Source: Halorientalis persicus
Lineage (GTDB): Archaea > Halobacteriota > Halobacteria > Halobacteriales > Haloarculaceae
Length of the DNA: 64,000 nucleotides
Direction of reading: 5' to 3'
Assembly: GCF_900110215.1 (NCBI RefSeq)
Contig: NZ_FOCX01000020.1
Span: 1-64,000 of the forward strand
Shown here piece after piece: positions 58,227-63,467 of this stretch (the stretch's first letter is position 1; each line of letters begins with the position of its first letter). Position numbers and translations under genes: made by a program. The notes under the pieces are model-generated. The model was not told the DNA's origin, searched no databases, and saw only the letters and a list, made by a program, of their open reading frames with translations.

Positions 58227-58370
58227 ACCGGGACTGGGTGTGTCTGCATCAAAGCGGCTTCGATGCGCGACGGCGAACACACGAGGTGATGTCGTGCGCG
58301 CGAAGAGAACGTTTCAATCTGTGATAATTTGGCCAAAGCGTTTATTGGTAATCTCTCGAACTACGGGGGT

Positions 58371-59344: not shown

Positions 59345-60259
59345 ATGCATGACTATCAGGCATACGGGCTCACGGTCAGATCACCGTTCCGGCTCCCAGA
59401 GTTACGAGAACTGGACCAGACCGTCACTGAGCCCGATGTCGCGATCTGTTCGGAAACCCTTGAACCGGCCCAAGCCGAGACGAGTCCTGCCAAATCGGAG
59501 CGCTGGATAGACGCCGAACCCGGTCGCTGTCGTTTTACATACGAGGAGGTTGGGACATTTCTCATCATCGGCGGCGAGCGTGTGCTTGTAGATCCGGTAT
59601 CACCGGATATCACCTCGACGCTCGTGTTCCGGCGACTGCTGGAAGGGCAGGCACTCGGCGTGCTCTGTCACCAGCGAGGGGATCTAGTCCTTCACGGCAG
59701 CGCAGTCGACTTCGGCGGCAATGCTGTTGTCTTCCTCGGGAACTCGGGTGCCGGAAAGTCGACCACTGCCGCAGCCTGTTACGACGCTGGGTACCCGCTA
59801 CTCGACGACGATGTCGTCGTAATCCGTTTCTCAGATGGGGCACCGAAGGTCGTTGCTGGCGTCCCGCAATTGAAGCTCGAACCCGAGACGGCGGTGGCAC
59901 TCGGAATCGAAGCGGTCACCGGAACTGAGGTGGATAGCTTCAGCGGGAAGGCGTTTCATCGAACGCAAAGCGCCGGTGGCTGCGGCGCAGTTCCCCTTTC
60001 ACGGTGTTATATCCTATCCGATGGCGATACGGTCGCCGTCGAACCAGTACCGGCTCGCCAGCGGCTCGTCGAACTTGTCTTGTCCACGTACACGGCGGGA
60101 CTGCTTTCCGACACGGACGCCGCGACCAGAAACTTCGAGGCCTGCTCAAGCGTCGTCAAACACGTCTCGGTCACGAGACTCATTCGCCCACGGCGTCTCG
60201 ACATCTTACCGACACTTGTTCGTTGTGTCGTTAGTGATCTAGACACCGACTCAGAATGA
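59345..60259 (+). CDS. HPr-kinase-like enzyme of RiPP (lasso) loci
   Basis: 304 residues. The N-terminal ~110 residues are a family-typical beta domain; then LHGSAVDFGGNAVVFLGNSG and P-loop GNSGAGKSTTAAACY, the capping DDDVVVIRF and a C-terminal helix set ending LPTLVRCVVSDL. In bacterial paeninodin clusters an HprK homologue phosphorylates the C-terminal serine of the precursor peptide. The gene ends nine bases into the 3' end of the precursor gene (convergent), and the precursor has a Ser next to its C-terminus. Lower GC than the window average, suggesting acquisition. No HPr/PTS gene nearby. Confidence 0.8.
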   Translation: MHDYQAYGLTVRSPFRLPELRELDQTVTEPDVAICSETLEPAQAETSPAKSERWIDAEPGRCRFTYEEVGTFLIIGGERVLVDPVSPDITSTLVFRRLLEGQALGVLCHQRGDLVLHGSAVDFGGNAVVFLGNSGAGKSTTAAACYDAGYPLLDDDVVVIRFSDGAPKVVAGVPQLKLEPETAVALGIEAVTGTEVDSFSGKAFHRTQSAGGCGAVPLSRCYILSDGDTVAVEPVPARQRLVELVLSTYTAGLLSDTDAATRNFEACSSVVKHVSVTRLIRPRRLDILPTLVRCVVSDLDTDSE

Positions 60260-60406
60260 GCCACCACCCAGTATTTGCAGACACCAGTCGGTGTCTTCGC
60301 CATTTCCTTCCTTGAGATCGCCCCACGTCTCGGTGACCGACTCGATAGATCCGTATTCGGTGAGGTGCGGTTTCTCGTACTTACCGCCGCCCTCTTTCTC
60401 CGTCAT
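60251..60406 (-). CDS. putative lasso-peptide precursor
   Basis: 51 residues, ATG 60406. Leader carries YEKPHLTEYGSIESVT, an exact fit to YxxPxLxxxGxxxxxT, the element recognised by lasso B1 proteins. After it comes ETWGDLKEGNGED and a tail WCLQILGGGSF. Two core starts are possible: Gly29 with a nine-residue ring closed on Glu37 (GDLKEGNGE), or Thr27 at the canonical distance with a ring on Glu33. One Cys only, so no disulfide. The C-terminus Gly-Gly-Gly-Ser-Phe offers a kinase target. An AT-rich block (AAATCTTTACG, minus strand, about 60430-60440) may be its own promoter. Very short, easily missed. Confidence 0.75.
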   Translation of the reverse strand: MTEKEGGGKYEKPHLTEYGSIESVTETWGDLKEGNGEDTDWCLQILGGGSF

Positions 60407-60579
60407 ATCTATTTTTTCGTTCCGTAGCCACGTAAAGATTTGTCTGCCAACAATTCTACCGGCTCACTCCGGACAGTCGTTCGAACGGATCGACATCAAG
60501 AGTGATACTCGCCGGACTTTGTGGACGATCTTCGAAGACGGATATCGTGACCAAGACAGGCCGAGTCCGTCGACTCCGG

Positions 60580-62454
60580 TTACTGAGTACCAGCAGTGTT
60601 CTCAAGCCAGGCCGAAAGCGAAAGTGCACGCCAGAGAACACGTGCAGAATGGATGTCTCTTTCCGCCTGAAAACGGTCGTGAGTCTCTCGTAGTGACTCA
60701 GGGTTGAGGTACGGCTCAACCATGCTCGGGTCTTCGACGAGTTCCAAGAGTTGATCGTCCGCTATCGCGAGTGCACCGATGAACGCTGCGTTCATCGTCG
60801 TCTTCCAGGACCGCCACTGGATTTCTTCCGGCAGTAGGTCGTCGAGAGCACGGCGGAGAATCATCCGCGTCCACCCGTCGGTGAGTTGCTGTGTTGGTGG
60901 GATGGCGAGACTGAACTCTACCAATCGTTTGTCGAGAAACGGGTACCGAGGTTCGATGCCGAACACCGCGTGAGTGATATCGTTGGCCTCAAGAAAGTCG
61001 ACGAGGGACCCTGCAGTGACCGATTCATACTGCCACTCTCGTGCGGTACGTGCGATAGCGGACCGTGGATCGGTTAGTCGGTGGTGGCGTGACGCAAGGT
61101 CGATACGGTTAGCAAACCCTTGGTCGAGTGTCGGATTTGCCCTCATTTCGACCGACGGCTTCCGCCGGATCCAGCGATACAGTCGCTCTACCGGATCGGG
61201 AATCAGCCCTGGAAGGACCTGTCGGAGAAAGAGACTTCGCGGTTGTCGGTCGAAAACGTCGCCCATCGCACGAAGTTCTTTCACCAGCTGGATCCACCGA
61301 CCGGTCCGAATCAAATGGGGGAGCAACACGAGTCCATAGCCGACGACGCTGTCGCCGTGAGTTCCTTCCAGTACGACCCCGACTTCGTCGTCGCTGGCGC
61401 GTCGCGCAATCTCCCATTTCATGAAGTGCATCGTGTTGTGGACTGGTGCATCGTAGTAGTCCATGGCCTGGTCGAACCCGGATAAGGCGCTTAGGTCGTC
61501 AGCGAAGACGTACTGGGAGTTGATTCCAGATCTATCGACCAAAGTCTCGATGTACTCCCGTTCGTCGCTCTCCGGCGCGTCCTCGAACACGCCGGAATAC
61601 GTTTTCAGGGGCTCGTCCGGCCACAGTTGTTCGTGCGCGACGGCCGTAACGGACGAAGAGTCCAACCCCCCGCTAAGCGTCGTCGCAGCAGGCTCGTCCG
61701 TCCGGAGCCGACAGTGGACGGCTTGCTCGAACAGGTCACGGAACCGACGTGCATAGTCCTCGTTGGAATCGAGCGTCACTGCTCGGCTCGGGTCAAGGTC
61801 CCAGTACCGCCAGCGTCGGCTGTTCCCCGCACTGACTATCATCGCGTGCGCGGGCGGAAGTCGCCTGATGGACTCGTAGAATGTGTTCTCCTCGTCTTCG
61901 AACAGGTTTGTTAGGAAATCGCCGACTTTCCTTTCGTTTAGCGACGGTTGGATGGACGGATGCGTCAGGATCGCCTTTGGCTCCGAAGCGACGGCGAACA
62001 GCCCGTCGGTGGCGTGGTAATAGAGCGGTTTGACGCCGAAATGATCTCGAGCACAGAACAGTCGGTTCTCGTGAGCGTCCCAGATGACGAAGGCATACGC
62101 TCCAACCAGGTGATCGACACACTGTTGCCCCCACTCACGATACGCCGCCAACAGCAGGTAGCTGTCGGATACCGATTCGTCGTCGCCGGGGGGATCGAGT
62201 CGCTGGCACAACTCGGCGCGGTTGTCGAGACGAACGTCGGCCGATACGACGAGTTCGTCTAGACGTTGCGGCTGGTCGTCGGTCTGTGCGGCTGGGACCG
62301 ACTGGAGATGCTGGTAACCCATCCCGACTGCGTCGTTGATCCACATATCATCTCCGTCTGGCCCGCGGTGATCGAGCGACGTCAGGGCCGTTTCGAGACG
62401 CGCTGGCTCGATTTTGTCCCGCCCCCGCTGAAAAATCGCGACGAGTCCGCTCAT
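60580..62454 (-). CDS. asparagine-synthetase-like macrolactam synthetase (lasso cyclase)
   Basis: 624 residues. N-terminal class II glutamine-amidotransferase-like domain (MSGLVAIFQRGRDKIEPARL; LDHRGPDGDDMW; RDHFGVKPLYY) in which the nucleophile Cys2 is Ser. C-terminal adenylating domain: PP motif TLSGGLDSSSVTAVA, EGTHGDSVVGYG, and PRYPFLDKRLVEFSLAIPPT, then DGWTRMILRRALDDLLPEEI. Loss of Cys2 rules out glutamine-derived ammonia and fits a lasso cyclase, which activates an Asp/Glu side chain for attack by the core N-terminus. It is upstream of the precursor on the same strand, 173 bases away. Confidence 0.8.
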   Translation of the reverse strand: MSGLVAIFQRGRDKIEPARLETALTSLDHRGPDGDDMWINDAVGMGYQHLQSVPAAQTDDQPQRLDELVVSADVRLDNRAELCQRLDPPGDDESVSDSYLLLAAYREWGQQCVDHLVGAYAFVIWDAHENRLFCARDHFGVKPLYYHATDGLFAVASEPKAILTHPSIQPSLNERKVGDFLTNLFEDEENTFYESIRRLPPAHAMIVSAGNSRRWRYWDLDPSRAVTLDSNEDYARRFRDLFEQAVHCRLRTDEPAATTLSGGLDSSSVTAVAHEQLWPDEPLKTYSGVFEDAPESDEREYIETLVDRSGINSQYVFADDLSALSGFDQAMDYYDAPVHNTMHFMKWEIARRASDDEVGVVLEGTHGDSVVGYGLVLLPHLIRTGRWIQLVKELRAMGDVFDRQPRSLFLRQVLPGLIPDPVERLYRWIRRKPSVEMRANPTLDQGFANRIDLASRHHRLTDPRSAIARTAREWQYESVTAGSLVDFLEANDITHAVFGIEPRYPFLDKRLVEFSLAIPPTQQLTDGWTRMILRRALDDLLPEEIQWRSWKTTMNAAFIGALAIADDQLLELVEDPSMVEPYLNPESLRETHDRFQAERDIHSARVLWRALSLSAWLENTAGTQ

Positions 62455-62612: not shown

Positions 62613-63467
62613 TCACTGGCTCGCGACGCCACCGTATCCCTGCTGTCCGTACCCCTGTTTTCCGAGTGCTCGTCCGGGGAAAGACGTGGGCTGTGAGGTA
62701 GTGCCACTGGTGGGCGTATTGGTTTCCGGTGTCGTCGTTTCGGGCGTCGCTGTCTCAGTCACTGCCGGAGTCGTGCTACCACCGGTTGACCCACTGCCAC
62801 CACTACCGGATCCGCCTCCACTGAATCCACCACCGTTTGCTCTATCGACAGTCGACTCTCCGTCGGTCGTCTCGACGGGTGTGATCGTGGGAGGCTCGGT
62901 CGTATCGACCATGTCCGGTGTGATGATCGTTTCCGTACCGGTCGGTGCGATGGTCGTATCAGTCGCCGTCGTTTCAGTGGTCCGAACAGTGTCAGCAGCG
63001 TCCGTGCCCGATCGCCTGTCAGCCGGGTTCGGTGTCGAGGGTGGGCTTGCTGTCGTCTTCGTAGTCGTTGTCATGGACGACCTGCCATCGGTATCAGTTG
63101 CCGAACCAGCTCCAACTGGTTGTCCTCCGTATCCAAACCGTGTTTCGCTCGATCTGCGTTCTGACTCCGGTTCCACACGCTGTCTGTCGGTGTCCAGGAA
63201 CGGTCCGATCACCAGCGAACCAAAGACGAGAGAGCCAAACTTGAGAACCGTGCGACGGGCCGGCCACGCTGACTCTGACGGGGTGTCCGTTTCAGCCGGT
63301 GAATCCCAGTTCTCGAACGGTATCCCACCGTTCAATTCGTCGGCCGTTATTTCGTCCGATCGCTCTTGCTGAGTGGCACCATCGTCGTCCAGTTCCGCAA
63401 CCGTGTCCCACTCCTCGAACGGCAACTCCGAATCATCCCCGTCGTCAAACAGTTCAGGATCACCCAT
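62613..63467 (-). CDS. Tat-exported Ser/Thr-rich protein with PFExWD motifs
   Basis: 284 residues. The cytoplasmic N-terminus holds two copies of PFExWD: LPFEEWD (15-21) and IPFENWD (49-55). A Tat-like signal follows (ARRTVLKFGSLVFGSLVIG, RR at 71-72). Next are GYGGQPVGAGSA, a long Thr/Ser/Pro-rich stretch, a Gly/Ser block (GGGFSGGGSGSGGSGSTGG) and a tail KQGYGQQGYGGVASQ. No enzyme domain is seen. It precedes the cyclase by 158 bases on the same strand; link to the lasso locus is open. Unknown function. Confidence 0.6.
   Translation of the reverse strand: MGDPELFDDGDDSELPFEEWDTVAELDDDGATQQERSDEITADELNGGIPFENWDSPAETDTPSESAWPARRTVLKFGSLVFGSLVIGPFLDTDRQRVEPESERRSSETRFGYGGQPVGAGSATDTDGRSSMTTTTKTTASPPSTPNPADRRSGTDAADTVRTTETTATDTTIAPTGTETIITPDMVDTTEPPTITPVETTDGESTVDRANGGGFSGGGSGSGGSGSTGGSTTPAVTETATPETTTPETNTPTSGTTSQPTSFPGRALGKQGYGQQGYGGVASQ

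Follow-up and report, generated by a model that had tools for sequence, protein, structure and literature searches.

A probable satellite lasso-peptide module in the haloarchaeon Halorientalis persicus, with leader-processing genes on a second contig

The closest described systems are the bacterial clusters for phosphorylated lasso peptides, bsf and paeninodin. Pathway roles have been described for B1, B2, C, K, D and N of the bsf cluster of Bradymonas sediminis, in which B1 speeds phosphorylation and helps B2 to remove the leader, K phosphorylates a core Ser (Ser3 in BsfA) and C cyclises the peptide (PMC10368454). The locus considered here lies at positions 59,345 to 62,454 of a 64,000-nucleotide stretch of Halorientalis persicus DNA (the window; positions 1 to 64,000 of contig NZ_FOCX01000020.1, called C96 below) and contains a precursor gene (A), a macrolactam cyclase gene (C) and a gene for an HprK-like kinase (K). 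It shares with bsf and paeninodin this type of kinase and a YxxPxL leader with Tyr at -17 and a conserved Thr; its haloarchaeal relatives carry the set A-B1-B2-C-K-D-N, with a transglutaminase-like peptidase and a discrete recognition element (RRE) for ribosomally synthesised and post-translationally modified peptides (RiPPs). It differs from them in having no B1, B2 or D gene, in an acidic core with a K-x5-D motif, and in being known from its genes alone; its candidate Ser for phosphorylation is near the C-terminus (S50 of 51) and not at position 3 as in BsfA. We consider it likely that A, C and K form a satellite module that borrows leader processing from a complete cluster on another contig, C17.

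Lassopeptides have been named among the archaeal RiPP classes in a survey based on antiSMASH (PMC12144867), and a haloarchaeal cluster with B1, B2 and kinase genes has been described as most similar to one of Halopiger xanaduensis (PMC10093198). Plasmid pHALXA01 of H. xanaduensis SH-6 (L033/L076) carries a direct relative of the window locus, with a cyclase 50% identical to that of the window and a core (QVNKEGVASDQW...) with the same K-x5-D; the plasmid record labels its B2, and the precursor is absent from the gene table, which is incomplete. These earlier clusters bear antiSMASH or Prokaryotic Genome Annotation Pipeline (PGAP) labels, and the accessible parts of the sources describe neither a shared B1/B2 pair nor a core rule. 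The remark in an earlier note on this DNA, that archaeal lasso peptides are little described, needs qualifying: clusters are already listed by antiSMASH surveys, while no description of an archaeal lasso peptide product was found in the literature searched, which largely lacked subscription papers and so is not proof of absence. We know of no earlier account of the A-C-K satellite, of the single B1/B2 pair that recurs across genomes, or of the K-x5-D rule in which the distance from the leader floats.

The precursor, cyclase and kinase genes

The features of the module, in window coordinates, are:

60251-60406, minus strand: precursor gene A, 51 residues, sequence MTEKEGGGKYEKPHLTEYGSIESVTETWGDLKEGNGEDTDWCLQILGGGSF, recognised by its leader motif and its match to a haloarchaeal precursor model
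60406-60329, minus strand: leader of A, residues 1-26
60328-60254, minus strand: putative core of A, residues 27-51 (stop codon 60253-60251)
60332-60379, minus strand: leader motif YEKPHLTEYGSIESVT, predicted to bind the RRE, the sole strict match in the window
60293-60313, minus strand: core motif K-x-G-x3-D, K32 to D38, of which K-x5-D is common to all 28 precursors of the class
60257-60262, minus strand: C-terminal Gly-Ser, G49-S50; 26 of the 28 cores have a GS close to the C-terminus
60431-60440, minus strand: TATA-like element AATCTTTACG, with TTTA 27-30 nt upstream of the start codon of A
60580-62454, minus strand: lasso macrolactam cyclase C, 624 amino acids (aa), assigned by NF033535 match, conservation and fold
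59345-60259, plus strand: HprK-like kinase K, 304 aa, with P-loop GNSGAGKST

The 51-residue open reading frame (ORF) with the leader motif is exactly as the earlier note had claimed, as are its HprK-like and asparagine-synthetase-like flanks. The strict pattern Y..P.L...G.....T has one match in the six frames of the window, where codon-shuffled windows average 0.03, and the leader has the [Y/W]xxPxL and the Thr near the cleavage site that are looked for in lasso loci generally. Comparison with leader models, which the note had proposed as a check, gave a divided answer. The NCBI lasso leader models are narrowly missed (NF033521, 17.9 versus a cut-off of 19; NF033528, 19.6 versus 33), whereas a hidden Markov model (HMM) of 26 homologous precursors from other haloarchaea, from which the window and C17 peptides were excluded, places A second among the 1,142 ORFs of C96 and C17 (E=1.7e-11), behind the C17 precursor (E=3.8e-16); the best unrelated ORF reaches only E=1.3. 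Homologous precursors next to the same cyclase, which the note had asked for in related genomes, were found beside homologous cyclases in more than 20 haloarchaeal loci. A TTTA(T)-type sequence is similarly placed upstream of most of 28 precursor genes, and is weak in the window copy.

The cyclase scores 623.6 bits with the NCBI lasso cyclase model NF033535 (cut-off 525), and this match and that of the precursor HMM bear out the noted arrangement of a precursor beside a lasso cyclase and an HprK-like kinase. Where asparagine synthetase B has a catalytic Cys at the N-terminus of its glutaminase domain, the cyclase has Ser2 (start MSG), and this Ser is near-invariant in relatives; nearly all cyclases of the set start with MSG or MSA, and two AsnB-like outgroups (L045 and L046) with MCG. 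The pyrophosphate (PPi) loop SGGLDSS and K551 are kept, and the ATP/PPi loop residues and K551 are invariant among relatives. On these sequence features the protein reads as a genuine lasso macrolactam cyclase. Were it instead a cellular asparagine synthetase, with an unrelated kinase and a fortuitous small ORF as neighbours, its shared superfamily and fold with AsnB and its passing of the general asn_synth_AEB model (295 versus 267 bits) would be expected. The structure prediction suggested in the earlier note was obtained with high confidence (predicted local distance difference test, pLDDT, 90) and has the fold of TsnB9 (Z 35.7), AsnB (Z 32.2) and beta-lactam synthetase (Z 28.9), but this fold is not diagnostic: AsnB, beta-lactam synthetase and lasso cyclases are not told apart by the search, and no lasso cyclase structure is among the matches listed. 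The missing Cys, the lasso model score well above its cut-off and the precursors beside homologous cyclases in other loci nevertheless leave the asparagine synthetase explanation with almost no credence.

The kinase has the P-loop, His and Asp-Asp of the HprK-like kinases found in paeninodin-type clusters, and 31 relatives all keep K138 (the P-loop lysine), H117 and D155-D156. K and A are convergent, and their tails overlap by 9 nt. The assignment of the locus to the paeninodin type in the earlier note does not hold in the strict sense. The kinase scores far under the HprK_rel_A cut-off (33 versus 200 bits), with Hpr_kinase_C below gathering; no paeninodin precursor model is matched; the last residue of the precursor is Phe, with Ser penultimate, in place of a C-terminal Ser; and the leader motif starts with Tyr, where Trp is nearly invariant in paeninodin-like leaders (PMC13381572). 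By analogy with the described clusters, the peptide of the window module is probably phosphorylated, and the Ser of G49-S50 is a candidate site.

Leader processing and the C17 cluster

No B1 (RRE, PqqD family), B2 (leader peptidase) or D (exporter) gene occurs near the window locus, with C96 examined to the contig end. The B1 and B2 that are generally looked for in the same lasso locus are absent from the window and present at the genome level: the whole assembly has one PqqD protein (B1) and one lasso B2, both on C17, in a complete lasso cluster:

C17 15364-15660: B1
C17 15662-16108: B2
C17 16105-18006: cyclase C
C17 18063-18212: precursor A
C17 18376-19275: kinase K, convergent
C17, same cluster: D, an ABC exporter, giving a complete B1-B2-C-A-K-D cluster (L004, L005)

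The window and C17 cyclases are 51% identical, and the kinases 44%. Because the leader-processing pair and the exporter are on another contig, the window locus alone is not expected to make a lasso peptide; the lasso locus of the earlier note stands in its gene identities but not as a complete producing locus, and the absence of B1, B2 and D went unmentioned there.

The G+C content (GC) of C17 (0.51) and the 4.1% contamination of the assembly prompted us to consider C17 as a contaminant. This is disfavoured, although not disproved, by its terminal IS5 fragment (a 312-nt end), which is 100% identical to copies on contigs C20 and C41; C20 is chromosome-like, with a GC of 0.66 over the 16.7 kb fetched. 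The identical insertion sequence ends tie C17 to this genome, to which it probably belongs.

Of 391 genomes sampled from the taxonomic class of the host, 16 have cyclases above the NF033535 cut-off. G396 has three cyclases, and G000, G345, G104 and G030 have two each; every one of these genomes has exactly one B1 and one B2. In G345 and G104 (L029, L032) B2 adjoins one cyclase and B1 the other, such that neither module is complete alone and the two must therefore share the pair. As in the window genome, module and main cluster are on separate contigs in G396, which has a K-A-C module (L057). A B1/B2 pair shared between cyclase modules is thus a recurrent arrangement, and the simplest reading of these gene orders would be that A-C-K modules are mobile units relying on a single leader-processing pair.

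The order of steps that we propose for the window module is drawn from the roles described for bsf (PMC10368454) and from the gene anatomy. A would be transcribed from its own promoter, with the TATA-like TTTA ~30 nt upstream, and the leader of its product would be bound by the RRE protein B1 of C17. The kinase of the module would phosphorylate a core Ser, most likely that of the conserved C-terminal Gly-Ser, and B2 of C17 would remove the leader. The module's own cyclase would then adenylate a core Asp or Glu and close the macrolactam around the tail, and export would be via the C17 ABC transporter (D). Several points weigh against this scheme. A second B1/B2 could sit in a gap of the assembly, which is in 121 contigs, and C17 might be a plasmid and be lost at times. 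The cyclase of the window is not the nearest paralogue of that on C17, so recognition of the window leader by C17 B1 is not assured, and the predicted window core departs from the canonical lasso rules.

The core rule and the candidate rings

The criteria for gathering the 28 precursors were the leader motif and proximity to class-1 cyclases, not the core, and the K-x5-D rule is therefore no artefact of the search pattern. Lys-x5-Asp stands at fixed spacing in all 28 cores, where shuffling of the individual cores would yield 2.8; besides the invariant Lys and Asp, Gly is present at Lys+2 in 26, and Asn or Asp at Lys-1 in 25. The window peptide by itself provides a weak control (K.G...D arises in 2.5% of shuffles of its core), and the weight of the motif comes from its conservation across the family. 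The leader Thr is not at a constant distance from this Asp (9 to 13): when Thr is numbered -2, the Asp falls at position 9 in twelve cores, 10 in six, 11 in three, 12 in five and 13 in two. Positions 7-9 lack an acid altogether in about one third or more of the cores (e.g. L033, L037, L040, L042a/b and L056a/b). The canonical register, with Thr at -2 and the N-terminal amine joined to an acid at 7-9, is therefore found in part of the class only. A lasso ring can start with Asn, as in metanodin (PMC12670498), and under the Thr(-2) rule Asn, Gln or Ser would be the first residue of several D9-type cores of haloarchaea; unlike the haloarchaeal class, metanodin is bacterial and keeps Thr(-2), and no K-x5-D rule was found described for it (PMC12670498).

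Three registers are candidates for the ring of the window peptide. Under the Thr(-2) rule the core would be TWGDLKEGNGEDTDWCLQILGGGSF, with T1 and with Glu7 as the acceptor of a 7-residue ring. A register shifted by two residues would place Thr27 at -2, with Gly29 as Gly1 and Glu37 as Glu9. In the third the ring would end at D38, core position 12, the residue homologous to the class-invariant Asp. The monoisotopic masses calculated for cyclised cores are 2679.191 with T27 as first residue, 2392.064 with G29, 2335.043 with D30 and 2220.016 with L31, and phosphorylation would add 79.966.

It may also be that the ring is non-canonical, with the side chain of the invariant Lys, and not the N-terminal amine, joined to the invariant Asp and a free N-terminal tail of variable length; such a ring is compatible with a satellite module. 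It would explain why the Lys-Asp spacing is fixed while the leader spacing is free, it would suit those cores that have no acid at 7-9, and a Lys32-Asp38 ring would be of canonical lasso size: counting atoms gives 26 for a Lys(i)-Asp(i+6) ring and 23-29 for the 7-Glu to 9-Glu lasso rings, against 37-40 for N-terminal rings to positions 12-13. Yet the closest bacterial relative found, in Chloroflexi (L011), is canonical (TQ/GAGSRTFLD, G1-D9), as are the second-class archaeal precursors (TE/GRHFSRVD, G1-D8). The twelve cores with Asp9 fit the Thr(-2) rule, and the Lys may be conserved for function or recognition. The lasso cyclases known to us use the N-terminal amine, and we know of no precedent for a Lys-Asp side-chain ring. 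We regard it as unlikely. Similarly doubtful is the combined proposal that class-1 haloarchaeal peptides are closed from the Lys side chain to Asp with a free N-terminal tail and that several A-C-K modules also share one B1/B2 in trans.

Origin, surroundings and related clusters

The module is held in a variable segment between conserved chromosomal blocks, extending from window position 58273 to C96 position 66642. In G168, the nearest genome of the genus (~92% identity), synteny breaks off at 58273 and resumes at 66642, with a counterpart of ~1.5 kb in between, and no orthologue of the module was found in the same-genus genomes examined. The segment has a GC of 0.59-0.60, versus 0.68 in the conserved part. 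In the tree the sister of the window cyclase is that of L037 (G355, a member of another family; support 100/100) and not that of C17. A recent duplication of the C17 cluster is rejected on this ground, and the tree suggests that the window module was probably acquired separately. The phage records searched contain distant relatives only (25-27% identity).

The same setting would suit a decaying remnant, in which a once complete cluster moved into the island and lost B1, B2 and D, leaving A, C and K intact with no product. The lower GC of a region lying between genes syntenic with same-genus genomes, the adjacent B1, B2, D and N genes of the sister cluster L037, and the weak TATA-like element of A are all consistent with such a history. 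Decay is less easily squared with three intact ORFs with conserved active-site residues, with a precursor that retains its leader and its K-x-G-x3-D and GS motifs, or with the recurrence in other genomes of modules that are unlinked or divided and have one B1/B2 between them, and we think a remnant improbable and a working satellite module the better account.

Glycosyltransferase-like genes and an NTP_transf_5 gene are found within ~4-12 kb of the module on C96. The NTP_transf_5 gene (C96 72970-74166; L003:16971-18167) is beyond the window, ~10 kb from the module, and is of the type of the N gene in the lasso clusters of relatives. Paeninodin clusters of bacilli are often in capsular polysaccharide loci (PMC13381572), and glycosyltransferase-like genes are near the window module too. 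The findings speak neither for nor against the halocin-like weapon or signal suggested in the earlier note. At window 62613-63467 (minus strand) an orphan protein of 284 aa is encoded. It is rich in Ser and Thr and has repeats of PFE[EN]WD, a hydrophobic segment containing RR, and the tail GYGQQGYGG; with no family match and no relative within the genus, it was left out of the cluster.

Two further groups of precursors with cyclases were noted:

L029:11192-11350, L032:9403-9546 and L057:8591-8722: second-class haloarchaeal precursors with canonical G1-D8 cores (GRHFSRVDGNSGTTGN and similar), adjoining a divergent cyclase clade and their own kinase
L011:9326-16489: complete B1-B2-C-A-K-D-N cluster of the Chloroflexi metagenome-assembled genome OHK40, with a canonical G1-D9 precursor

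Of the bacterial loci found, L011 has the cyclase most closely related to those of haloarchaea (39% identity); a scan of genome contigs with the cyclase as query returned bacterial loci only, of which it was the single useful one.

Lasso-like clusters with no cyclase in 18 kb were also seen (L061, L062 (G323), L063 (G318), L064 (G154), L065 (G051) and L066 (G036)), and 14 of the 31 class genomes that have B2 lack a cyclase match at E<=1e-60. These clusters contain B1, B2, an HprK-like kinase, NTP_transf_5 and usually an ABC exporter, and their precursors have YxxP...G.....T leaders and very short cores, e.g. MKEYETPSVETYGTVEEKTNWWDHDDGYGKWS, with about six in tandem in L061. The linear polyphosphorylated peptides (LPPs) of Bacillota have in common with them an RRE, an HprK-like kinase, an NTP transferase and an exporter, and use a SipW-like signal peptidase as leader peptidase (PMC13381572); L061-L066 have B2 in its place, and by this resemblance possibly make linear phosphopeptides. 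The window locus, unlike the LPP clusters, has a cyclase.

The window locus and its relatives supply ~28 concrete precursors of a kind for which we found no archaeal lasso product described, and their family-wide core rule (K-x-G-x3-D and C-terminal GS) may score poorly in rule-based miners. They also offer genetic evidence for the use of a single RRE/peptidase pair by several cyclase modules, some of them unlinked. Haloferax volcanii has already been used as a host for the expression of archaeal RiPPs (PMC12144867), and in it trans-processing, ring connectivity and the site of the kinase become directly testable.

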